Source: Mycolicibacterium sp. MU0050 (GTDB lineage Bacteria; Actinomycetota; Actinomycetes; Mycobacteriales; Mycobacteriaceae). Taken from it: DNA of 64,000 nucleotides. The translations under genes and the position numbers were made by a program. Every line of letters begins with the position of its first letter. Position 1 is the first letter of the stretch. Positions 29,668-39,370 of this stretch are shown here, in pieces. The notes under the pieces were generated by a model. It was not told the origin of the DNA and did not search any database. It saw only the letters and a program-made list of their open reading frames with translations. The stretch covers positions 3,348,001-3,412,000 of the forward strand of contig NZ_OY726395.1 in assembly GCF_963378085.1 (NCBI RefSeq), in the 5' to 3' direction.

Positions 29668-30231
29668 ATGGCAGGGCGTGACTCCCGAAGCAGCCGACTC
29701 TCCGTCGACGACTGGCTGCAGGCGGGCTACACCATCCTCGCCGAGGACGGTTTGCAGGCTCTCAAGATCGACCGGCTCTGCGCCCGCCTGGGCGTCACCA
29801 AGGGCAGCTTCTACTGGCATTTCACCGACATGGCCAGCTACCGCAACGCGCTGCTGGAGTCCTGGGCCGAACAGCGCGGCGGCGAGCACGCGGTCTACCA
29901 GCAGATCCGCGACCGCCCGCCCGCGGAGCGGTTGTCGATGCTGATCGCCGCACTGGTCAGCCCGCGACATTGGCGCCTCGAGCGGGCCATGCGGGAGTGG
30001 GCGCGCACCGACCCCAGCGTCGCGGCCAGCGTGGAGGCCGCCGACCGCCGGGTGATCCGGACCGTGCGGCAGGCGTTCGTCGACCTCGACTTCGAACCCG
30101 AGGAGGCCGACCTGCGCGCGCGCACCACCTTTGCCGCGGGCATCGGGTTCCTGCAGATCGCCGGCAGCAAGACCAACCCGCTGACCGCCGCGCAGCGCGA
30201 GCGCTTCCTGCAGTTCATGCTGCGCCCCTGA
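29668..30231 (+). CDS. TetR-family regulator (downstream of arylsulfatase)
   Basis: A 187-residue regulator. The DNA-binding domain at residues 10-55 contains YTILAEDGLQALKIDRLCARLGVTKGSFYWHFTDMASYRNALLESW, a standard TetR helix-turn-helix with the YWHF signature. The ligand-binding part has no recognisable relative. It starts seven bases after the sulfatase stop and is probably cotranscribed with it, so it may regulate the sulfatase, the operon at 30358, or both. It ends 126 bases before the dioxygenase gene. Confidence 0.85.
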   Translation: MAGRDSRSSRLSVDDWLQAGYTILAEDGLQALKIDRLCARLGVTKGSFYWHFTDMASYRNALLESWAEQRGGEHAVYQQIRDRPPAERLSMLIAALVSPRHWRLERAMREWARTDPSVAASVEAADRRVIRTVRQAFVDLDFEPEEADLRARTTFAAGIGFLQIAGSKTNPLTAAQRERFLQFMLRP

Positions 30232-30315
30232 CTGATTTGGGCGTGATTCCGCACGGTGACCGTGGTTGGGTGATCACGCCGAAATCGCCGGGGGGTTGAC
30301 GGGCAACAGAGCTAA

Positions 30316-30335
30316 AAGTAAAGTCAGTTTCACTT
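30316..30335. promoter_or_regulatory. Imperfect palindrome upstream of the dioxygenase operon
   Basis: AAGTAAAGTC and AGTTTCACTT are reverse complements at 7 of 10 positions. The site lies 22 bases before the ATG at 30358, in an AT-richer patch, and is where an operator for one of the two nearby TetR proteins could be. GAGGAG (30345-30350) after it is the ribosome binding site. Confidence 0.45.
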
Positions 30336-30357
30336 CTGCTGACCGAGGAGCACATCC

Positions 30358-31473
30358 ATGGAATCCTTCGTTCACCTGCGCAAAGGCAGGACGCCCAAGC
30401 GCGTCCACGCCGATCTCGACGGCCTCAAGGACGACGAACTCGGCCGCGGCGGCTTCGTGGGCCGGACCGCCAACATGTACCGGCGCAACGACCCCACCGC
30501 CTACCGGACCGTCGGCCCGCTGCGCCCCACCGACGTGCTCAGCTCGGAGCTGAAGCCCTCCGACGCCACCGACCCCCAGGGCGCACCCCTGCTGATGTTC
30601 TCCAACGAGGACTGCCTGGTGCTGCTGAGCCGCCGCAGCGAGGAGATGCCGTTCTTCGCGCGCTACGTCGACGGCGATCTGCTGTCCTTCGTGCACCGCG
30701 GCTCGGGACGCCTGGAAACCGAACTCGGCCCGCTGGACTACCGCGAGGGCGACTGGGTGTACATCCCGAAAGCCTGTACCTGGCGCCAGATCCCGGCCGA
30801 GGAAACCACGATGCTGATGATCCAGGCCACCGACGAGTTCCGGGTACCCCCGCCGGGCACGCTGGGTCGCCACTTCCCGTTCGACCCCGCGCAGGCCACC
30901 ATCCCGGATCCGCAGCCCATCGACGACGGCGAGGGTCCGCACGTCGACGGCGAGTACGAGGTCCGGCTCATGCACGCCCCGATCGACGGGGTGGGCACCA
31001 CAAGCCTGTTCTACCAACATCATCCGCTCGACGTGGAGGGGTGGCGCGGGGACAACTTCCCGTTCACCTTCAACATCGAGGACTACACCGTCATCACCTC
31101 CGACAGCGTGCACCTGCCGCCCACGGTCCACCTGTTCATGCAGGCCACCGGCGTCTACATCATGAACTTCCTGCCCAAGCCCGCCGAAACCGTCCCCGGC
31201 ACCGAGCGCACCCCGTGGTACCACCGCAACGTCGACTACGACGAGATCGCGTTCTTCCACGGCGGCTCGCTGTACGGCATCCCGATGCCGCCCGGACTGG
31301 TGTCGCATGCGCCGCAGGGCGTCCACCACGGCGCGCCCGAGAAGGCCCGCGAGCGCGCCCGCCGCAAGTTCGACGACTATGACCGGGTGGACTGGTCGGT
31401 GATCGCGATCGACACCCGCCGCCGCCTGGTTCCCTCCGCCGAAATCCTCGCCAACGATCTGGGGCAACACTGA
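30358..31473 (+). CDS. Homogentisate 1,2-dioxygenase-like cupin enzyme
   Basis: A 371-residue double-cupin protein related to homogentisate dioxygenase, which opens aromatic rings with Fe(II) and O2. The likely iron ligands are His289 (in WYHRNVDYDE), Glu296 and His323 or His324 (in HAPQGVHHGAPE). Canonical HGDs have about 430-450 residues, so this one is short and may use another substrate. It begins a nine-gene run; the next gene starts one base after its stop. No maleylacetoacetate isomerase or fumarylacetoacetase gene is nearby, which argues against a simple homogentisate pathway. Confidence 0.78.
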   Translation: MESFVHLRKGRTPKRVHADLDGLKDDELGRGGFVGRTANMYRRNDPTAYRTVGPLRPTDVLSSELKPSDATDPQGAPLLMFSNEDCLVLLSRRSEEMPFFARYVDGDLLSFVHRGSGRLETELGPLDYREGDWVYIPKACTWRQIPAEETTMLMIQATDEFRVPPPGTLGRHFPFDPAQATIPDPQPIDDGEGPHVDGEYEVRLMHAPIDGVGTTSLFYQHHPLDVEGWRGDNFPFTFNIEDYTVITSDSVHLPPTVHLFMQATGVYIMNFLPKPAETVPGTERTPWYHRNVDYDEIAFFHGGSLYGIPMPPGLVSHAPQGVHHGAPEKARERARRKFDDYDRVDWSVIAIDTRRRLVPSAEILANDLGQH

Positions 31474-31474
31474 G

Positions 31475-32689
31475 ATGACGAGCACCGATACGAAAACCGC
31501 TGCGACCCCCGCCAAGTTCGAGTATGACCGCATCCCGTATCTGGTCGCCTACCAGAACAATTCGGGCGTGCGCGACGTGTACGGCGGGGTCGCCGAGTTG
31601 GTGGTGCTGGAGAGCTATCTGCTCAAGCCCAAGGACCGCCCGTCCGACACGGTGCTGATCTTCATGCACCCCATCGGGGGTGGGGCCTACCTGCCGATGA
31701 TCAACGGGTTGGCCCGCGCCGGGCACCACGTCATCTACTGCAACAGCCGCTTCCGGGGCACCGATTCGGCGTTGCTGATGGAGAAGGTGGTCGAGGACCT
31801 CGGCGAGTGCATCAAGGACGCCAAGAACCGCCTCGGCTACGACAAGGTGGTGCTGGCGGGCTGGAGCGGCGGCGGTTCGCTGTCGGTGTTCTACCAGCAG
31901 CAGGCGCAGAACCCGACCGTGACCGCCAGCCCGTCCGGCGACGGGCCGGACCTCACCAAGCTGGGCCTGATCCCCGCCGACGCCATCATGCTGCTCGCGG
32001 CCCACGTCAGCCGGCACGGGACCATGACCGAATGGCTGGACGCCTCGATCCTCGACGAGTCCGACCCGAGCAAGCGCGACCCGGAGCTGGATCTCTACAA
32101 CCCGGACAATCCGAATCAGCCGCCCTACTCCCCCGAGTTCCTGGACCGCTATCGCGAGGCCCAGATCGCCCGAAACCGCCGAATCACCAAGTGGGTGAAG
32201 GAGAAGCTCGCCGAGCTCGAGGCCGCCGGCCGCCCGGACGACGAGTTCGCCTTCGTGGTGCACGGCACCATGGCCGATCCCCGCTGGCTGGACCCGACCG
32301 TCGATCCCAACGACCGCAAACCCGGAACCTGCTACCTGGGTGACCCCCAGGTGGTCAACAACTCGCCGGTCGGTCTGGCCCGGTTCTGCACCCTGCGCAG
32401 CTGGCTGTCGCAGTGGAGCTACGACGACGCCAACGGCGACGCGGTCAAGGCCGGGCCCGACATCAAGATCCCCGCGCTGGTGATCGGCAACCTGGCCGAC
32501 GACGCATGCACCCCAAGCCACACCCGCCGGCTGTTCGAGGCGATCGGGCACCCCGACAAGGAGATGCACGAAATCGCCGGGGCCAACCACTATTACGCGG
32601 GTCCCGACCAACGCGACACGCTGCGGGAGGCCGTCGGCATCTGCACCGACTGGCTGCACCGCCACGGTCTGTCCCTGGAGACGGCGTGA
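31475..32689 (+). CDS. Alpha/beta hydrolase
   Basis: A 404-residue alpha/beta-hydrolase-fold enzyme. The nucleophile is Ser131 in LAGWSGGGS, the oxyanion region is FMHPIGGGAYLPMINGLA, a likely acid is in NLADDACTPSHT, and the catalytic His is in GANHYYAG near residue 375. An insert of about 130 residues lies between strands 6 and 7 and probably forms a cap. Following a ring-cleaving dioxygenase, it could hydrolyse the cleavage product or an ester or lactone. It overlaps the CoA-transferase gene by four bases. Confidence 0.8.
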   Translation: MTSTDTKTAATPAKFEYDRIPYLVAYQNNSGVRDVYGGVAELVVLESYLLKPKDRPSDTVLIFMHPIGGGAYLPMINGLARAGHHVIYCNSRFRGTDSALLMEKVVEDLGECIKDAKNRLGYDKVVLAGWSGGGSLSVFYQQQAQNPTVTASPSGDGPDLTKLGLIPADAIMLLAAHVSRHGTMTEWLDASILDESDPSKRDPELDLYNPDNPNQPPYSPEFLDRYREAQIARNRRITKWVKEKLAELEAAGRPDDEFAFVVHGTMADPRWLDPTVDPNDRKPGTCYLGDPQVVNNSPVGLARFCTLRSWLSQWSYDDANGDAVKAGPDIKIPALVIGNLADDACTPSHTRRLFEAIGHPDKEMHEIAGANHYYAGPDQRDTLREAVGICTDWLHRHGLSLETA

Positions 32690-33891
32690 CCCCCACCGGG
32701 CCGCTGGACGGCATCCGCGTCATCGAGGTCGGCACGCTGATCTCCGGGCCGTTCGCGGGCCGGCTACTGGGCGACATGGGCGCCGAGGTCATCAAGATCG
32801 AACCCCCCGGCGCCCCGGACCCGCTGCGCACCTGGGGGCAGGCCGAACTCGACGGCGAACACTTCTTCTGGACCGTGCACGCCCGCAACAAGAAGGCCGT
32901 CACGCTGAATCTGCGGGAGCCGCAGGGCCGGGAGCTGTTCCTGGAGCTGGTGGACAACTCCGACATCATCGTCGAGAACTTCCGCCCGGGCACGCTGGAG
33001 AAGTGGAACCTGGGCTACGACGTTCTGGCGCAGCGCAATCCGGGCATCATCCTGGTGCGGGTGTCGGGCTACGGCCAGACCGGCCCGGAGGCCCACAAGG
33101 CCGGCTACGCGTCGGTGGCCGAGGCCGCCAGCGGGCTGCGGCACATGAACGGCTTCCCCGGTGGGCCGCCGCCGCGGCTCGCGCTGTCGCTCGGCGACAG
33201 CCTGGCGGGCATGTTCGCCGCGCAAGGCGCGCTGGCGGCGCTGTATCGCCGGACGGTCACCGGCACCGGGCAGATCGTCGACGCCGCGCTCACCGAATCG
33301 TGTCTGGCCATCCAGGAATCCACCATCCCGGACTACGACATCGGCGGCGTCGTGCGCGGCCCGTCGGGCACCCGACTGGAGGGCATCGCACCGTCGAACA
33401 TCTACCGCAGCTCCGACGGCAGCTGGGTGGTGATCGCCGCCAACCAGGACACCGTCTTCCGCCGCCTCTGCGAGGCAATGGGCCGCCCGGAGCTGGCCAC
33501 CGACGACCGCTTTGTCAATCACGTTGCGCGGGGCCGCAATCAGGACGAGCTCGACAAGATCATCGGCGAGTGGGCCGCCCAGCGTCCGCCGGCCGAGATC
33601 ATCGACACGCTCTCGAAGGCCGGCGTGATCTCCGGACCCATCAACACCGTGGCCGAGGTGGTCGCCGACCCGCAACTCAACGCCCGCGGGATGATCGCCG
33701 ATCACTTCGACGAGCGGATCGGCCGCAACGTCAAGGGTCCGGGCGTGGTCCCGGTCCTCTCCGAATCCCCGGGCACCATCCGGTCCGCGGGGCCGGCCCG
33801 CCCCGGGCAGCACAACGACGAGGTCTACCGCGGACTGCTCGGCCGCAGCGCGGCCGACCTCGAACGGTTGCAGGCCGAAGGAGTGTTATGA
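32686..33891 (+). CDS. Class III CoA-transferase (CaiB/BaiF family)
   Basis: A 401-residue CoA-transferase that moves CoA from a donor acyl-CoA to a carboxylic acid. The N-terminal block PLDGIRVIEVGTLISGPFAGRLLGDMGAEVIKIEPPGAPDPLR and HARNKKAVTLNLREPQGRELF are diagnostic. The catalytic aspartate is expected at Asp171 in SLGDSLAG. The start is GTG at 32686, overlapping the hydrolase stop as GTGA. In the operon it would activate the acid made by the dioxygenase and hydrolase so that the later CoA-dependent steps can proceed. Confidence 0.88.
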   Translation: MTPTGPLDGIRVIEVGTLISGPFAGRLLGDMGAEVIKIEPPGAPDPLRTWGQAELDGEHFFWTVHARNKKAVTLNLREPQGRELFLELVDNSDIIVENFRPGTLEKWNLGYDVLAQRNPGIILVRVSGYGQTGPEAHKAGYASVAEAASGLRHMNGFPGGPPPRLALSLGDSLAGMFAAQGALAALYRRTVTGTGQIVDAALTESCLAIQESTIPDYDIGGVVRGPSGTRLEGIAPSNIYRSSDGSWVVIAANQDTVFRRLCEAMGRPELATDDRFVNHVARGRNQDELDKIIGEWAAQRPPAEIIDTLSKAGVISGPINTVAEVVADPQLNARGMIADHFDERIGRNVKGPGVVPVLSESPGTIRSAGPARPGQHNDEVYRGLLGRSAADLERLQAEGVL

Positions 33892-34805
33892 GCGAGCTAC
33901 CCGCCCAGGTCACCATCCGCGAGGTCGCGCTGCGCGACGGCCTGCAGATCGAAGAGCCGATCTCGTTGGACGCCAAGGTCGAACTGCTCGAGGCCGTGGT
34001 CGCCACCGGGGTCCGCGAGGTCGAGGCCACCGCTTTCGTCTCGCCGTCGAAGGTGCCGGCCCTGGCCGACGCCGAGCAGTTCGCGACCGAGCTGAAGCGG
34101 TTCACCGGCCCCGAGTACGACGTGGAGTTCTCCGCGCTGGTCGCCAGCCCGAACGGCGCGCGCCGGGCGCTCGCCGCCGGGCTCAACTCAATCGAGTACG
34201 TGGTGTCGGCCGCGGATTCGCACAGCCGCGCCAACGTGGGCCGCGGCACCGACGAGGCCACCGTCGCGATCGCCGATGTACTGGGCATCGCCCGCGACCA
34301 CGGCGCCACCCTGGAGGTCATCGTCGCGACGGCCTGGGACTGCCCGTTCGACGGCCCGACACCCCCGCAGCGCGTCCTCGACATCGTCAGCGCGGCTTGC
34401 GATCTCGGAGTGGACCGCATCGCCATTGCCGACACCATCGGGACCGCCACCCCGCGGCGGGCCGGTGACCTGCTGACCCGGGTACGGCAGATCATCGGCG
34501 ACACCCCGCTGGGTGCACACTTCCACAACACCCGCGGGGCAGGTCTGGCCAGCGCGTACGCGGCCGTGCAGGCGGGCGTGACCCGCCTCGACGCGTCGGT
34601 CGGCGGTCTCGGCGGCTGCCCGTTCGCCCCCGGGGCCAGCGGCAACATCGCCACCGAGGACCTGGTGTATCTGCTGCGCGACAGCGGCGTCGATACCGGT
34701 CTCGACCTGCCGCGGACCATCGAGGCCGCGGCCGTGGCGCAGCGCCTCGTCGGCCACGAACTGCCCAGTTCGCTACTGCGAGCCGGTGACCGGATCGGCG
34801 GCTAG
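33888..34805 (+). CDS. Hydroxymethylglutaryl-CoA lyase-like enzyme
   Basis: A 305-residue member of the HMG-CoA lyase/DRE-TIM metallolyase family. It has the metal-binding REVALRDGLQ at residues 11-20, HFHNTRGAGLASAY near 207 (metal His pair), and the mobile loop GGLGGCPFAPGASGN near 238 with the catalytic Cys. It therefore carries all residues of a working retro-aldol lyase on a 3-hydroxy-3-alkyl-acyl-CoA. The ATG at 33888 overlaps the CoA-transferase stop. It could act on HMG-CoA from leucine or on a related product of this operon. Confidence 0.85.
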   Translation: MSELPAQVTIREVALRDGLQIEEPISLDAKVELLEAVVATGVREVEATAFVSPSKVPALADAEQFATELKRFTGPEYDVEFSALVASPNGARRALAAGLNSIEYVVSAADSHSRANVGRGTDEATVAIADVLGIARDHGATLEVIVATAWDCPFDGPTPPQRVLDIVSAACDLGVDRIAIADTIGTATPRRAGDLLTRVRQIIGDTPLGAHFHNTRGAGLASAYAAVQAGVTRLDASVGGLGGCPFAPGASGNIATEDLVYLLRDSGVDTGLDLPRTIEAAAVAQRLVGHELPSSLLRAGDRIGG

Positions 34806-35423
34806 ATGACGCCGCGCACGCTATCCAGCAAGGGCCAGCAGACCCGGGACGCCATCGAGCAGGCGGCCCGGAAACTGTTTGCCGAGCGTGGTTTTCACGG
34901 CACCACGCTGGCCGACATCACCTCAGCGGCGGGCAAGTCCTCGGCGGCGTTCTACCGCTACTTCGACGACAAGGAAGACCTGCTGGCGGCGCTGGCCCAG
35001 AGCTTCCTGCAGGACATCGTGGCGCCGTCGGGCACCGATCTGCGCTGGCCCCGATCCCCCGAGGACACCGAGTTCTTCACCGCGGCTGTCACCGGCTACT
35101 GGAACATGTTCAAGCAGAACTTCGGCATCATGGTGGCCGTCGCCCAACTCGGCGCGGGCCAGCCGCGATTCGCCGAGGTGCAGAACGCGTTTCGCCGCTT
35201 CGGGATGGACATCGTGCGCGCTTCGGTGCACGCCGCCCGCGAGCAGGGGTACGCCGAAGATCTGGACCCCGACCACCTGGCCCTGGCGATCGCGTTGATG
35301 TTCGAACAGTTCACCACGGTGTACCTGCGCCCGGACGCCGCGGCGCTGGGCGTCCGCACCACCGACGACGATGCCGTACACACCCTTGCGACCATCTGGC
35401 GAAAGACGCTGTACGGTCGCTAA
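34806..35423 (+). CDS. TetR-family regulator inside the catabolic operon
   Basis: A 205-residue regulator whose ATG follows the lyase stop directly. The N-terminal QQTRDAIEQAARKLFAERGFHGTTLADITSAAGKSSAAFYRYFDDKEDLLAALA is a textbook TetR helix-turn-helix. The C-terminal domain is generic. Its place in the operon suggests autoregulation and control by a pathway intermediate. The palindrome at 30316 is a candidate binding site. Confidence 0.88.
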   Translation: MTPRTLSSKGQQTRDAIEQAARKLFAERGFHGTTLADITSAAGKSSAAFYRYFDDKEDLLAALAQSFLQDIVAPSGTDLRWPRSPEDTEFFTAAVTGYWNMFKQNFGIMVAVAQLGAGQPRFAEVQNAFRRFGMDIVRASVHAAREQGYAEDLDPDHLALAIALMFEQFTTVYLRPDAAALGVRTTDDDAVHTLATIWRKTLYGR

Positions 35424-35447
35424 CCAGAGCTACCCGAGGAGTCAATC

Positions 35448-36686
35448 GTGGATTTCACCCTGCCGGATCACCTGCCCGGCCTGCTCGCCGAGATGGACGC
35501 CTTCATCGAGGCCGAGATCAAGCCGCTGGAACGCGAGAACATGCAGTACTTCGATCGGCGCCGGGAGTTCGCCCGCACCGATCTGAACAACGGCGGCATC
35601 CCCAATCGGGAGTGGGAGGACCTGCTCGACGAGATGCGCCGGCGCGCCGACAAGGCGGGCTGGCTGCGCTACGGCCTGCCGTCGGAGTTCGGCGGCCGCG
35701 ACGGCAGCAACCTCGACATGGCCGTCATCCGAGAACATCTGGCGCACAAGGGTCTTGGGCTGCACAACGACCTGCAGGACGAGTCGTCGATCGTCGGGAA
35801 CTTCCCGCAGGTGATCATGATGTCGCGGTTCGGCACCGAGGCCCAGAAGAATGACTGGTGCGAGGCGCTGATCACCGGCGAGAAGTCCATGGCGTTCGGG
35901 TTGAGCGAACCCAACCACGGCAGCGACGCCACCTGGCTGGAGACCCGCGCCGTGCGCGACGGCGACAGCTGGGTCATCAACGGCACCAAGCGCTGGAACA
36001 CCGGCGTGCACCGCGCCACCCATGACCTCATCTTCGCCCGCACCTCCGGGGAGCCCGGCCAGGCCACCGGCATCACGGCGTTTCTGGTGCCCTGTGACTC
36101 CGAGGGCTTCGAGGTCCCCTATTACTGGTGGACGTTCAACATGCCCAGCGACCACGCGGAGGTGGAACTCAAGGACGTCCGGGTGCCGGCGGACGCGGTG
36201 CTCGGCGAGGTGGACCGCGGCCTCGAGGTGGGCCAGACGTTCCTGCACGAGAACCGGATTCGGCAGGCCGCCAGCAGCCTGGGCGCCGCACAGTACTGCA
36301 TCGACCGGGCCGCGGACTACGCCGCCGAGCGGATCGTCTTCGGCAAGCCGTTGTCGGTGAACCAGGCCGTCCAGTGGCCCCTGGCCGAACTGCAGACCGA
36401 CGCGCAGATGGTGCGACTGCTGGTGTACTACGCGGCCTGGCATCTGGACCGCGACCACCACATGGAGGTCTCCGACAAGGTCTCGATGGCCAACTACCGC
36501 GCCAACCGGCTGGTGTGCGAGGCCGCCGACCGCGCCATGCAGATCCACGGCGGTCTGGGCTACAGCCGCCACGAACCGTTCGAGCACATCTACCGGCACC
36601 ACCGTCGTTACCGCATCACCGAGGGCACCGAGGAGATCCAGATCCGCCGGGTCGCCCAGCGGATGCTCAAGTTCGGCCGCAAATGA
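35448..36686 (+). CDS. Acyl-CoA dehydrogenase (LvaC/ACAD11-like context)
   Basis: A 412-residue acyl-CoA dehydrogenase. FAD and substrate segments are FGLSEPNHGSDATWLETRAVRDGDSWVINGTKRWNTG near residues 148-184, and the C-terminal region is MQIHGGLGYSRHEPFEHIYRHHRRYRITEGTEEIQIRRVAQRML, with Glu in TEGT. The RHHRRYRITEGTEEIQ pattern resembles ACAD10/11. The start is GTG at 35448. It is coupled by overlap to the APH-like kinase and DUF6285 genes, the same trio found in P. putida levulinate degradation (LvaC, LvaA, LvaB), where it helps convert 4-phospho-acyl-CoA to an enoyl-CoA. Confidence 0.85.
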   Translation: MDFTLPDHLPGLLAEMDAFIEAEIKPLERENMQYFDRRREFARTDLNNGGIPNREWEDLLDEMRRRADKAGWLRYGLPSEFGGRDGSNLDMAVIREHLAHKGLGLHNDLQDESSIVGNFPQVIMMSRFGTEAQKNDWCEALITGEKSMAFGLSEPNHGSDATWLETRAVRDGDSWVINGTKRWNTGVHRATHDLIFARTSGEPGQATGITAFLVPCDSEGFEVPYYWWTFNMPSDHAEVELKDVRVPADAVLGEVDRGLEVGQTFLHENRIRQAASSLGAAQYCIDRAADYAAERIVFGKPLSVNQAVQWPLAELQTDAQMVRLLVYYAAWHLDRDHHMEVSDKVSMANYRANRLVCEAADRAMQIHGGLGYSRHEPFEHIYRHHRRYRITEGTEEIQIRRVAQRMLKFGRK

Positions 36687-37645
36687 CCGACTTCACCGAG
36701 GCGCTCACGGCGGTGCTGCGGCCCGTCCTCGGGGAGACGGTGACGGTCACCGACCTGACCCGGCTCACCGGTGGCGCCAGCCGCACCACCTGGTCGTTCA
36801 CCGCGAACACCGACACCGGGCCGCGGGCGTTGATCCTGCGCACCGGGCCACCGGACGAGGTGCACGCCAGCATGGAACTCGAGGCCCGGGTGCAGGCGCT
36901 GGCCGCCGAACAGGGTGCCGCGGTACCCGAGATCATCACCGCGTCGAACTCCGTTGAACCGCTGGGCAATCCGTACCTGATCTGCACCGCGATCGCCGGG
37001 GAGACCATCGTCCGGCGGATCTACCGCGGCCTCGACGACCAACGCCGGGCGAACCTGCTGCGGCAGTGCGCCGAGGCCCTGGTGCACATCCACCGGATCG
37101 ATCCGGCGCGGGCCGACCTCACCGTCGAGGACCCGGTGGCGCAGCTGCGCGCCCAACTCGACGGCACCGGGGACACCACCGCCACCTTCGAGTTCGCGTT
37201 CCGGTGGCTCGACCGGAATCGGCCCGCCACGGCCACCCCCACCCTGGTGCACGGAGACTTCCGGATGGGGAACCTGATCGTCGACGAATCCGGGCTGGCC
37301 GCGGTGCTGGACTGGGAGTTGGTGCACGCCGGCGACCCGGTGGAGGACCTCGCCTGGTTCTGCATCCGGGCCTGGCGGTTCGGGGCGCCGCGCAGCCTCG
37401 AGGCGGGTGGGCTGGGCAGCGTCGAGGACTTGCTGGCCGCCTATCACGACGCCGGCGGCGCCGCCGTCGACCGCGACGCGTTCCGCTGGTGGCTGGTGCT
37501 GTCGACGTTGAAGTGGGGCGTCATCTGCCGCTTCCAGGCCGAGCGCCACCTGTCCGGGCAGACCCCGTCGGTGGAGTTGGCGACCATCGGGCGCCGGGTC
37601 TGCGAGACGGAATGGGACCTGCTGAACCTGCTGGAGGAGCGATGA
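36683..37645 (+). CDS. APH-family kinase, LvaA/ACAD10-11-like (acyl-CoA 4-hydroxyl kinase predicted)
   Basis: A 320-residue kinase-fold protein of the aminoglycoside phosphotransferase family. The catalytic loop is TLVHGDFRMGNLIVDE near residue 189 and the metal-binding Asp is in AAVLDWELVHAGDPVEDLAWFC near 208; the N-terminal lobe has RLTGGASRTTWSF. Enzymes of this subgroup phosphorylate the 4-hydroxyl of acyl-CoAs rather than drugs. The four-base overlaps with the acyl-CoA dehydrogenase before it and the DUF6285 gene after it support that role. An antibiotic-resistance role is unlikely in this setting. Confidence 0.82.
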   Translation: MTDFTEALTAVLRPVLGETVTVTDLTRLTGGASRTTWSFTANTDTGPRALILRTGPPDEVHASMELEARVQALAAEQGAAVPEIITASNSVEPLGNPYLICTAIAGETIVRRIYRGLDDQRRANLLRQCAEALVHIHRIDPARADLTVEDPVAQLRAQLDGTGDTTATFEFAFRWLDRNRPATATPTLVHGDFRMGNLIVDESGLAAVLDWELVHAGDPVEDLAWFCIRAWRFGAPRSLEAGGLGSVEDLLAAYHDAGGAAVDRDAFRWWLVLSTLKWGVICRFQAERHLSGQTPSVELATIGRRVCETEWDLLNLLEER

Positions 37646-37980
37646 CCGCCTTGCATGGCCGGCCGACCGCCGCCGAACTGGTGGCCGCCGTCGCCGATTT
37701 CCTGGACCAGGACGTCCGCGCCGCCACCGAGGGGCAGGTGAACTTCCACGCCCGCGTCGCCGCCAATGCCCTGCGGATGGTGCAGCGGGAGTTGACCGCG
37801 ACCGGCGCCGCCGAGGTGAACCAGGTGCTCGCCGGGCTGGGGGCCACCGACGAGGCGCAGTTGGCGGCCGCGATCCGGAACGGCGACTTCGACGAACGCG
37901 CCGACGAATTGCTGCCCGGGCTCCGGGTGCTGGTCGGCCACCGGCTGGCCGCCGCCCATCCGGGTTACACCGAGGAGTGA
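37642..37980 (+). CDS. DUF6285 protein (LvaB-like kinase partner)
   Basis: A 112-residue helical protein with the DUF6285 pattern: RPTAAELVAAVADFLDQDVRAATEGQVNFHARVAANALRMVQREL, then a variable segment and LRVLVGHRLAAAHPGY. In P. putida the similar LvaB is needed together with the kinase LvaA. The gene is sandwiched by overlaps between the kinase and the SnoaL-like gene, which supports a protein complex. GGAGGAGCG precedes the ATG. Confidence 0.8.
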   Translation: MTALHGRPTAAELVAAVADFLDQDVRAATEGQVNFHARVAANALRMVQRELTATGAAEVNQVLAGLGATDEAQLAAAIRNGDFDERADELLPGLRVLVGHRLAAAHPGYTEE

Positions 37981-38366
37981 GCGTGGCCATCGACCGGGCG
38001 AGCATCCTCGACGTCGCCGACCGCCTGTTCGCGGCGATAGAACGCGCCGACACCGACACCATCGAGGCGTTGTTCGACGCCGACATCCTGGTCTGGCACA
38101 GCGGCGACGCCGCCGACAACGAACGCGCCCGCGCGCTGCGGGTGATCAAGTGGTTCATCGACCGCACCAGCACCCGCCGCTACGAGATCTTCGACCGGCA
38201 GGTCTTCGAGTCCGGCTTTGTCCAGCAGCACATCCTGCACGCCGCCGGCGCCGACGGCGCGAGGATCGCGTTGCGCGTGGGCATCGTGATCAAGCTGGCC
38301 GATAACGGCCTGATCAGTCGGATCGACGAGTACTTCGACCCCAGGGACATGGCCCCGTTGCTGTAG
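37977..38366 (+). CDS. SnoaL-like (NTF2-fold) protein
   Basis: A 129-residue protein of the NTF2/SnoaL-like fold: an N-terminal helix ILDVADRLFAAIERADTDTIEALFDADILVWHSGDA, then curved-sheet strands and RISRIDEYFDP-type end. Such proteins act as small isomerases, dehydratases or hydrolases. The start is GTG at 37977, overlapping the DUF6285 stop, so it closes the operon. The substrate is unknown. Confidence 0.78.
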   Translation: MSVAIDRASILDVADRLFAAIERADTDTIEALFDADILVWHSGDAADNERARALRVIKWFIDRTSTRRYEIFDRQVFESGFVQQHILHAAGADGARIALRVGIVIKLADNGLISRIDEYFDPRDMAPLL

Positions 38367-38415
38367 CGGGGGGACCCGCGCAACCAAAAGCGGCCAGGCC
38401 GAACGAATGTGGCCG

Positions 38416-38421
38416 TAGCAT
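38416..38421 (+). promoter_or_regulatory. Putative -10 hexamer (TAGCAT) for the receiver protein gene
   Basis: TAGCAT fits TANNNT and ends seven bases before the GTG at 38429, the layout of a leaderless mycobacterial promoter. This suggests that the response-regulator gene is transcribed separately from the catabolic operon. Confidence 0.45.
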
Positions 38422-38428
38422 CGGCGTC

Positions 38429-38836
38429 GTGGCCGACACTTCCGTGCGCGTGCTGGTGTACAGCGACAACCCCCGCACCCGCGAGCAGGTCTTGCTGGCG
38501 CTGGGCAAGCGGGTGCATCCCGACCTGCCCGACCTGGACTATCTCGAGGTCGCCACGGAGCCCGTCGTGATTCAGCAGATGGACGCCGGGGGCATCGACC
38601 TGGCCATCCTCGACGGGGAGGCCACGCCGGCGGGCGGGATGGGGATCGCCAAGCAACTCAAGGACGAGCTGGCGGTGTGCCCGCCGATCCTGGTGCTGAC
38701 CGGCCGCCGCGACGACGCCTGGCTGGCGAAATGGTCCCGCGCAGAGGCCGCGGTGCCGCATCCGATCGACCCCATCGAGCTGGGTGAGGCCGTGGTCCGC
38801 CTACTGCGCGCGACCCGCCCCGAAACACGCGCCTGA
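38429..38836 (+). CDS. Atypical single-domain response regulator (Rv3143-like)
   Basis: A 135-residue receiver-fold protein without an output domain. The phospho-acceptor candidate is Asp62 in LAILDGEATPAGG and the Thr of VLTGR is kept. The acidic pair at the N-terminus is reduced to one Asp (YSDNPR), and the conserved Lys of strand 5 is replaced (VPHPIDP). Phosphorylation may therefore be weak or absent. Its place directly before nuoA equals Rv3143; I recall a report that this protein touches the Nuo complex, which I cannot verify here. No sensor kinase is nearby. Confidence 0.85.
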   Translation: MADTSVRVLVYSDNPRTREQVLLALGKRVHPDLPDLDYLEVATEPVVIQQMDAGGIDLAILDGEATPAGGMGIAKQLKDELAVCPPILVLTGRRDDAWLAKWSRAEAAVPHPIDPIELGEAVVRLLRATRPETRA

Positions 38837-38970
38837 ACCGGCGCAATCGCCGCGCGAAATATTTTGCCGCCCTTACTCATTCACAGGATCTGAGACTTTC
38901 TGGGCGTTTCCTGCGCGGTTGTGTCGATCCTAGCCAAAACGCGTCGGGGCGACGGTCAAGATCGCTAGGC

Positions 38971-38986
38971 TGTGTGCTAGCTCACA
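38971..38986. promoter_or_regulatory. CRP-like site upstream of nuoA
   Basis: TGTGTGCTAGCTCACA matches TGTGA-N6-TCACA with one mismatch and ends 34 bases before the nuoA ATG. The 184-base gap from 38837 otherwise contains only candidate promoter bases, such as TAGGCT at 38966-38971, which overlaps the site. Confidence 0.45.
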
Positions 38987-39020
38987 TCGACAGCCCGAGC
39001 GAGGGAGCGCAGCAGTACCC

Positions 39021-39370
39021 ATGGAGCTCTACACGCCCATCCTGGTTCTGGGGGCCATCGCGACCGCCTTCGCGGTCGGTTCGGTCGGCATAGCGCTGGT
39101 GATCGGCCCCCGCCGCTTCAATCGCGCCAAGGTCATGGCCTACGAATGCGGGGTGGAGCCCGCGGCGCAAGACGCCGGCAGCGGCCGGTTCCCCATCAAG
39201 TTCTACCTGGTGGCCATGTCGTTCATCATCTTCGACATCGAGATCGTCTTCCTCTACCCGTGGGCCGTGGCGTTCGACAACCTCGGGTTGTTCGGGGTGA
39301 TCGCCGTGGCGCTGTTCATCTTCAACGTGTCGGTCGCCTACGCGTACGAGTGGCGGCGGGGAGGCTTGAA

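Follow-up and report, generated by a model that had tools for sequence, protein, structure and literature searches.

A two-module Mycobacterium operon that may join HGD-type ring cleavage to coenzyme A-linked processing of a branched or 4-hydroxy acid

The HsaA-HsaD module of steroid catabolism places an aromatic hydroxylase, a ring-cleaving dioxygenase and an alpha/beta hydrolase in series, and the tyrosine pathway joins homogentisate dioxygenase (HmgA/HGD) to fumarylacetoacetase (FAH). A third described system is that of LvaABC and ACAD10-ACAD11. Two papers describe the marks of enzymes acting on 4-phosphoacyl-coenzyme A (CoA), namely a catalytic Asp replacing Glu and a set of Arg, His and Arg residues (PMC11342911, PMC12440821). 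Here, we analyzed 64,000 nucleotides (the window, meaning this whole stretch) of the 5.22 Mb genome of a Mycobacterium, Mycolicibacterium sp. MU0050, where nine genes at 30358-38366 invite comparison with these systems. We propose that they form a repressor-controlled catabolic operon with two modules, one for ring cleavage and one for the CoA-linked processing of a branched or 4-hydroxy acid, a reading drawn from sequence comparisons to which we give an even chance. Gene calling and Pfam searches verified the following coupled genes.

30358..31473, plus strand: HGD-fold cupin dioxygenase, 371 amino acids (aa), with base His252 and Fe ligands His289, Glu296 and His324
31475..32689, plus strand: alpha/beta hydrolase (Pfam), nearest to esterase and lipase folds, with Ser131, Asp342 and His372 invariant in a 20-sequence alignment
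32686..33891, plus strand: class III CoA-transferase (PF02515, 411 bits), closest solved relative human SUGCT (9br7, 224 bits)
33888..34805, plus strand: enzyme of the 3-hydroxy-3-methylglutaryl (HMG)-CoA lyase (HMGL) subfamily (NF004283, 280.4 bits, cut-off 246)
34806..35423, plus strand: TetR repressor within the operon (PF00440)
35448..36686, plus strand: acyl-CoA dehydrogenase of the ordinary Glu-base type (Pfam), LvaC fingerprint absent
36683..37645, plus strand: aminoglycoside phosphotransferase (APH)-like kinase of the LvaA/ACAD11 kinase type (PF01636), motif HGDFRMGN at 190, best solved match ACAD11
37642..37980, plus strand: DUF6285 protein, likely kinase partner (PF19802, 76.2 bits), sole match in the genome, with kinase fusions in Cryptosporangium and Jatrophihabitans
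37977..38366, plus strand: SnoaL-like protein (PF12680), a less constant member detected in 63 of 93 Mycobacterium loci

Five of the eight junctions are 4-bp overlaps, two are gaps of 0 and 1 bp, and one is a gap of 24 bp. A simple gene caller favors an alternative SnoaL start at 37983, which would turn the DUF6285/SnoaL junction into a gap of 2. The initial annotation of this DNA had described nine plus-strand genes with overlaps or gaps of at most 24 bases, and the coordinates and junctions bear this out. Its family names also stand, as all nine are backed by Pfam and NCBIfam, the cupin alone scoring just under the HgmA_N gathering score (19.0 vs. 20.2).

To assess how far the genes are linked, 16 query proteins were compared with 93 Mycobacterium loci (8 + 80 + 5 from three sets). 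The collection is biased to close relatives because 80 of the loci are the best 80 of 273 matches; at least two of its contigs are counted twice, and a few metagenome-assembled genomes are titled only Mycobacteriaceae or Actinomycetes. The order cupin, hydrolase, CoA-transferase, HMGL, TetR, dehydrogenase, kinase and DUF6285 is kept in 85 of the 93 loci, which is far beyond chance. Of the remaining eight, seven are cut short by the end of their contig and agree with this order up to that point; in the eighth, from M. intermedium, an extra kinase-DUF6285 pair (L105:15124-16447) lies between TetR and dehydrogenase and is 43-46% identical to the window's own. Carriers of the operon include Mycolicibacterium neoaurum ATCC 25795 and M. 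aurum (loci L080, L068). Across the genus, a strong cupin match is found in 100 of 117 genomes (split or partial in a few), with none in 15 and a weak one in two. The expected linkage in relatives is therefore found within Mycobacterium and holds partly outside it, where the neighborhood of the cupin-hydrolase pair often lacks part or all of the lower set. We found no description of the operon in the open-licence literature, which does not prove its absence from print, and nothing useful there on bacterial breakdown of tocopherol or quinones.

Two candidate control elements precede the first gene.

30296..30324, plus strand: sigma-70-like promoter, TTGACG - 17 - TAAAGT, the sole promoter-like site in 29900-39200 (mean of shuffles 0.4)
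30315..30336, no strand assigned: 22-bp palindromic operator over the -10 box, a candidate TetR site

The TTG-C and AAAA-TAA block of the promoter are conserved among aligned relatives. The palindrome model has 16 specified half-site positions and was built from these same 93 loci, so that shuffles and outgroups are the fair comparison. Scores reach at least 14 of 16 in 92 of the loci and 13 in the remaining one, against a maximum of 12 in a single shuffle per upstream region and of 11 among 11 non-Mycobacterium loci and three second-copy cupins. A stricter pattern is present in 78 of the 93 loci, and 100 shuffles of the window gave none. When a wider TetR regulon was sought genome-wide, the operon site stood alone at up to one mismatch, and two mismatches added a single site that lacks the operator core. 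With up to three mismatches allowed, the hits number 16 against 10 a strand for a control pattern, so that most are attributable to chance; several of these looser hits resemble a different inverted repeat, which we take to be KstR-like. As the palindrome recurs in 92 of 93 loci and is unique in the genome at up to one mismatch, the TetR protein of the operon probably acts as a repressor of local reach.

The cupin has the HGD fold and keeps the base and metal ligands of HGD without variation; its identity to solved HGDs is 20-21% in the portion of the model that aligns. It scores 37.8 bits with the TIGR01015 equivalog, under the cut-off of 510.75. This cut-off alone is not decisive, because the short FAH-linked HGDs of loci L049 and L050 also miss it, with 62-65 bits. 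In the tree, the cupin falls outside the FAH-linked HGDs, in a region of long branches. In seven of seven loci with the short HGD-like gene (L048, L049, L050, L157-L160), FAH is no more than about 1 kb away from it; in loci of the window clade, the sole FAH match is a weak one (27%, 5 kb off, in L057). On these comparisons, we class the cupin as an enzyme that has the HGD fold but is separate from the FAH-linked HGDs. The initial annotation had noted that the stretch has no fumarylacetoacetase, and indeed neither FAH nor HPPD nor HGD exceeds its curated cut-off anywhere in the window genome. It had also named, as grounds for abandoning its proposal, a cupin grouping with true HGDs and a complete homogentisate pathway encoded elsewhere; neither was found. 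A true homogentisate pathway was accordingly set low. One might still consider a rewired homogentisate, gentisate or simple hydroquinone pathway, with the serine hydrolase in place of fumarylacetoacetase. The retained fold and active-site residues speak for it, as does the name homogentisate 1,2-dioxygenase borne by most of the named orthologues (best 120 of 747 listed). We regard it as unlikely, given the lack of HPPD and FAH over cut-off and the separation in the tree, long branches included, and it would leave the CoA, kinase and lyase genes without a role.

Relatives of the cupin also occur on plasmids. One, with 48% identity, lies in a large cluster of the M. avium plasmid pP7a (248000-289626; L155, L176) together with P450s, aldehyde dehydrogenases, limonene-epoxide-hydrolase-like proteins, CoA ligases and a phosphotransferase. 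Another, with 39% identity, is found on Streptomyces clavuligerus plasmids (L156:7986-9161), where a tyrosinase and its cofactor gene are close by and the annotation shows no hydrolase in the vicinity.

The hydrolase accompanies the cupin closely. We surveyed 394 class members for the cupin (E <=1e-60) and for a close hydrolase (>370 bits, a line set after the scores were known): each was found in 33 genomes, and both in 32 of the 34 having either. The catalytic Ser131, Asp342 and His372 are invariant in the 20 sequences aligned. The structure model has a predicted local distance difference test (pLDDT) score of 83, and its nearest folds, closely tied, are esterases, lipases and a dienelactone hydrolase. 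Membership in a C-C hydrolase family was considered and is not demonstrable from these ties; the bond cut could, judging from the model, be C-C, ester or lactone. The esterase-like partner, together with the low identity of the cupin to solved HGDs, fits an enzyme that does not cleave rings at all, the cupin acting as isomerase, decarboxylase or C-C lyase on a non-aromatic keto or lactone acid. We think this improbable, the least favored of the alternatives, since the base and metal ligands of HGD are invariant and since an HpaB-type hydroxylase and a dehydrogenase stand immediately upstream of the cupin-hydrolase pair in two loci from other genera (L142, L143). A second locus of the window genome (L191:11241-16157; G000:C1, about 4347-4352 kb) encodes relatives of the operon's TetR (31% identity) and hydrolase (41%), and continues with a 329-aa protein and then a 736-aa dehydrogenase. 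A hydrolase paralogue of about 39-43% identity is present in all 26 Mycobacterium genomes surveyed, including the cupin-less G028.

Turning to the lower genes, the CoA-transferase reaches 248.2 bits with the NF052585 equivalog, under the cut-off of 750. The lyase clears the PRK05692 subfamily cut-off (280.4 vs. 246 bits) and is the only one of five matches in the window genome to do so. The kinase has the APH-type motifs HGDFRMGN at 190 and DWE at 210, and is 42% identical to a kinase of a Cryptosporangium cluster and 37% to one of Thermus. DUF6285, with its single match in the genome being that of the operon, adjoins or is fused to the kinase across clusters. It may correspond to LvaB, and it is likely the partner of the kinase. 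Because LvaC-type clusters have a kinase and DUF6285 of this type, a kinase step in the window operon is plausible on sequence grounds.

With gene families, order, fold, conserved residues, palindrome and module separability established, we infer from gene content the reactions, the order of steps and the TetR ligand as follows. The HGD-fold Fe(II) dioxygenase would open a hydroquinone-type (1,4-dihydroxy) aromatic ring, and the serine hydrolase would hydrolyze the ring-fission product, in the role that fumarylacetoacetase has in the homogentisate pathway. The SUGCT-like class III CoA-transferase could then add CoA to the released branched or dicarboxylic acid, after which the LvaA-type kinase and its DUF6285 partner would phosphorylate a 4-hydroxyacyl-CoA. 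The Glu-type acyl-CoA dehydrogenase would act on the chain, and the HMG-CoA lyase may perform a final C-C cut to give acetyl-CoA and a ketoacid. TetR is predicted to repress the operon until bound by a ring-side compound.

Several observations weigh against this reading, and the first concerns the dehydrogenase. With the LvaC/ACAD11 fingerprint residues taken from PMC12440821, the window enzyme fails the test, having Glu at the catalytic position and Phe, Gln and Ser at the fingerprint sites. The Glu is present in all 87 Mycobacterium orthologues covering the site (89 examined). The full LvaC set is found in the dehydrogenases of Cryptosporangium (4/4), Jatrophihabitans and Thermus, and in at least five enzymes encoded elsewhere in the window genome (five aligned). 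The last trio as simply LvaCAB was hence rejected for the dehydrogenase. The resemblance to LvaC/A/B first suggested stands for gene order and kinase and fails for this enzyme. Elimination of phosphate at C4 by the window dehydrogenase, also part of that suggestion, is not indicated, because the ordinary Glu is kept and the phosphate-binding residues of LvaC/ACAD11 are absent. As the dehydrogenase of the Mycobacterium operon is of the Glu type, elimination would need LvaC-type enzymes encoded elsewhere: either the eliminating enzyme is supplied in trans or some other chemistry replaces this step.

The upper genes raise further difficulties. No quinol-making hydroxylase was recognized by Pfam among the nine genes, and the hydrolase model has no special likeness to C-C hydrolases. 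At a looser threshold (E 1e-40), the number of genomes with relatives of the hydrolase is 47, and the cupin is absent from 15 of these. The 41% paralogue in the window genome has a TetR and a dehydrogenase as neighbors but no cupin. The binding of TetR to the palindrome at 30315-30336 is probable, as deduced from a TetR gene that is constant in the operon and absent from three genomes without the upper genes. Outside Mycobacterium, the lower genes are inconstant: one locus has only cupin, hydrolase and CoA-transferase (L141), one only the cupin-hydrolase pair (L148), and one lacks CoA-transferase and kinase (L142); no hydrolase was found in the 12 kb of L145, where the cupin is near a contig end. 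In L144, L146 and L147, about 8 kb separates the cupin from the hydrolase. The more distant cupin of L144 is accompanied by P450s, a CoA ligase and dehydrogenases. At the same locus, that of a 51% cupin relative with two P450s, two acyl-CoA dehydrogenases are fused into a protein of 782 aa (L144:1949-4297).

The natural loss of genes also counts among these points. Among 16 Mycobacterium genomes with no or a weak cupin match, seven keep DUF6285, which is present in all 15 cupin-bearing genomes compared. We examined six of the seven at the locus level (L197-L202). In L198, L200 and L201, the CoA-transferase, HMGL, dehydrogenase, kinase and DUF6285 genes are contiguous, and the cupin, hydrolase and internal TetR are lost. 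Remnants of the cupin start persist in L200 and L201, and the palindrome is still seen in L201 (15/16), worn in L200 (12) and gone from L198. The CoA-transferase genes of L200 and L201 are 93.6% identical in DNA, that of L198 being more distant (84-85%). L197 is reduced to dehydrogenase, kinase, DUF6285 and a fragmentary SnoaL match; in L199 the operon genes are present but the cupin is partial, and L202 is decaying. Since three genomes keep the lower module after losing cupin, hydrolase and TetR, it is useful without ring cleavage and need not act on ring-cleavage products. The repressor travels with the upper module. Such independence of the lower module weakens the single linear pathway proposed in the initial annotation.

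It also favors the view that two separate pathways share one promoter, cupin and hydrolase serving one aromatic compound, and the genes from CoA-transferase to DUF6285 forming a co-induced general route for HMG-type or 4-hydroxy acids (e.g., from lactones, leucine or isoprenoid breakdown). The lyase being alone over cut-off in the genome is consistent with this, as is Thermus, where dehydrogenase, kinase and DUF6285 follow the same order as in the window and no cupin is annotated in the 9 kb shown. Against it stand the eight genes kept together in 85 of 93 Mycobacterium loci, and the joining of kinase-DUF6285 to the cupin-hydrolase pair in two other genera. In Cryptosporangium (L039, L040, L042, L043), the pair is followed by an LvaC-type dehydrogenase and the kinase, with DUF6285 fused in the proteins read. 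Jatrophihabitans (L041/L152) has a thiolase, short-chain dehydrogenases/reductases (SDRs), a CoA ligase, an opposite-strand CoA-transferase, the cupin-hydrolase pair and a hydratase, as well as an LvaC-type dehydrogenase, a kinase-DUF6285 fusion, an ATP-binding cassette importer and HMGL. Beyond its upstream hydroxylase and dehydrogenase, L143 carries a CoA ligase, dehydrogenases, a thiolase, an SDR, an enoyl-CoA hydratase and HMGL. We consider two co-induced pathways possible, with a clearly smaller chance than one two-module operon. The union of ring cleavage with CoA chemistry, which had been put forward from the window alone, is strengthened by the presence of the pair beside true LvaC-type dehydrogenases and kinase-DUF6285 in Cryptosporangium and Jatrophihabitans.

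For the two-module operon, our best guess at the substrate is the acids of alkyl or prenyl hydroquinones. Catabolites of prenyl hydroquinones are suggested because a hydroquinone ring, a 4-hydroxy acid and an HMG-type tail are combined. Tocopheronic-type acids have a hydroquinone ring and a 4-hydroxy-4-methyl side chain. A bolder and rather doubtful version is a widespread mycobacterial route for meroterpenoid hydroquinones, such as chain-shortened vitamin E or plastoquinone, in which the HGD-type enzyme and serine hydrolase would cut the ring, the 4-hydroxyl would be removed with the help of the kinase, and HMG-CoA lyase would act on the methyl-branched tail.

Two acyl-CoA dehydrogenase genes, a sulfatase and another TetR precede the operon. 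It is followed by a conserved protein of 130 aa without Pfam match (38444-38836, ahead of nuoA), about 69-88% identical across the Mycobacterium loci having it, and then the complex I operon from 39021.

An operon with its order kept across much of Mycobacterium, an operator-like site of its own and a misleading enzyme name points to a real gap in what is known of metabolism in a genus under intense study. Should the mechanism prove true, HGD-type ring cleavage would extend past tyrosine catabolism and join the recently described phosphorylation route of 4-hydroxyacyl-CoA, and a carbon source common to many environmental mycobacteria would be revealed. Genomes that have naturally lost one module and kept the other allow a direct test of the order of steps.

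How does this operon compare with known systems? With HmgA/HGD and fumarylacetoacetase, the cupin shares the fold, catalytic base, metal-ligand pattern and presumably the opening of a 1,4-dihydroxy ring. It differs in having a serine hydrolase as partner and CoA chemistry afterwards, in a genome with no HPPD or FAH over cut-off, and is 31-33% identical in alignment to the short FAH-linked HGDs of L157, L049 and L050. With LvaABC/ACAD10-ACAD11, the window shares the order of dehydrogenase, kinase and DUF6285, as in Thermus, the kinase motif and the ACAD11 match, whereas its dehydrogenase is without the catalytic Asp and the phosphate-binding Arg, His and Arg. As for SUGCT and HMG-CoA lyase, the transferase has SUGCT as nearest solved relative, and its gene overlaps that of a lyase passing the HMGL cut-off; yet it is far under the cut-off for succinate-glutarate CoA-transferase and sits in a ring-cleavage operon. 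Compared by description, HsaA-HsaD has a similar dioxygenase-hydrolase series, and in other genera a hydroxylase and CoA-linked side-chain genes are likewise near the pair; the window, however, uses a cupin dioxygenase of the HGD type where HsaA-HsaD uses one of the vicinal oxygen chelate (VOC) type.

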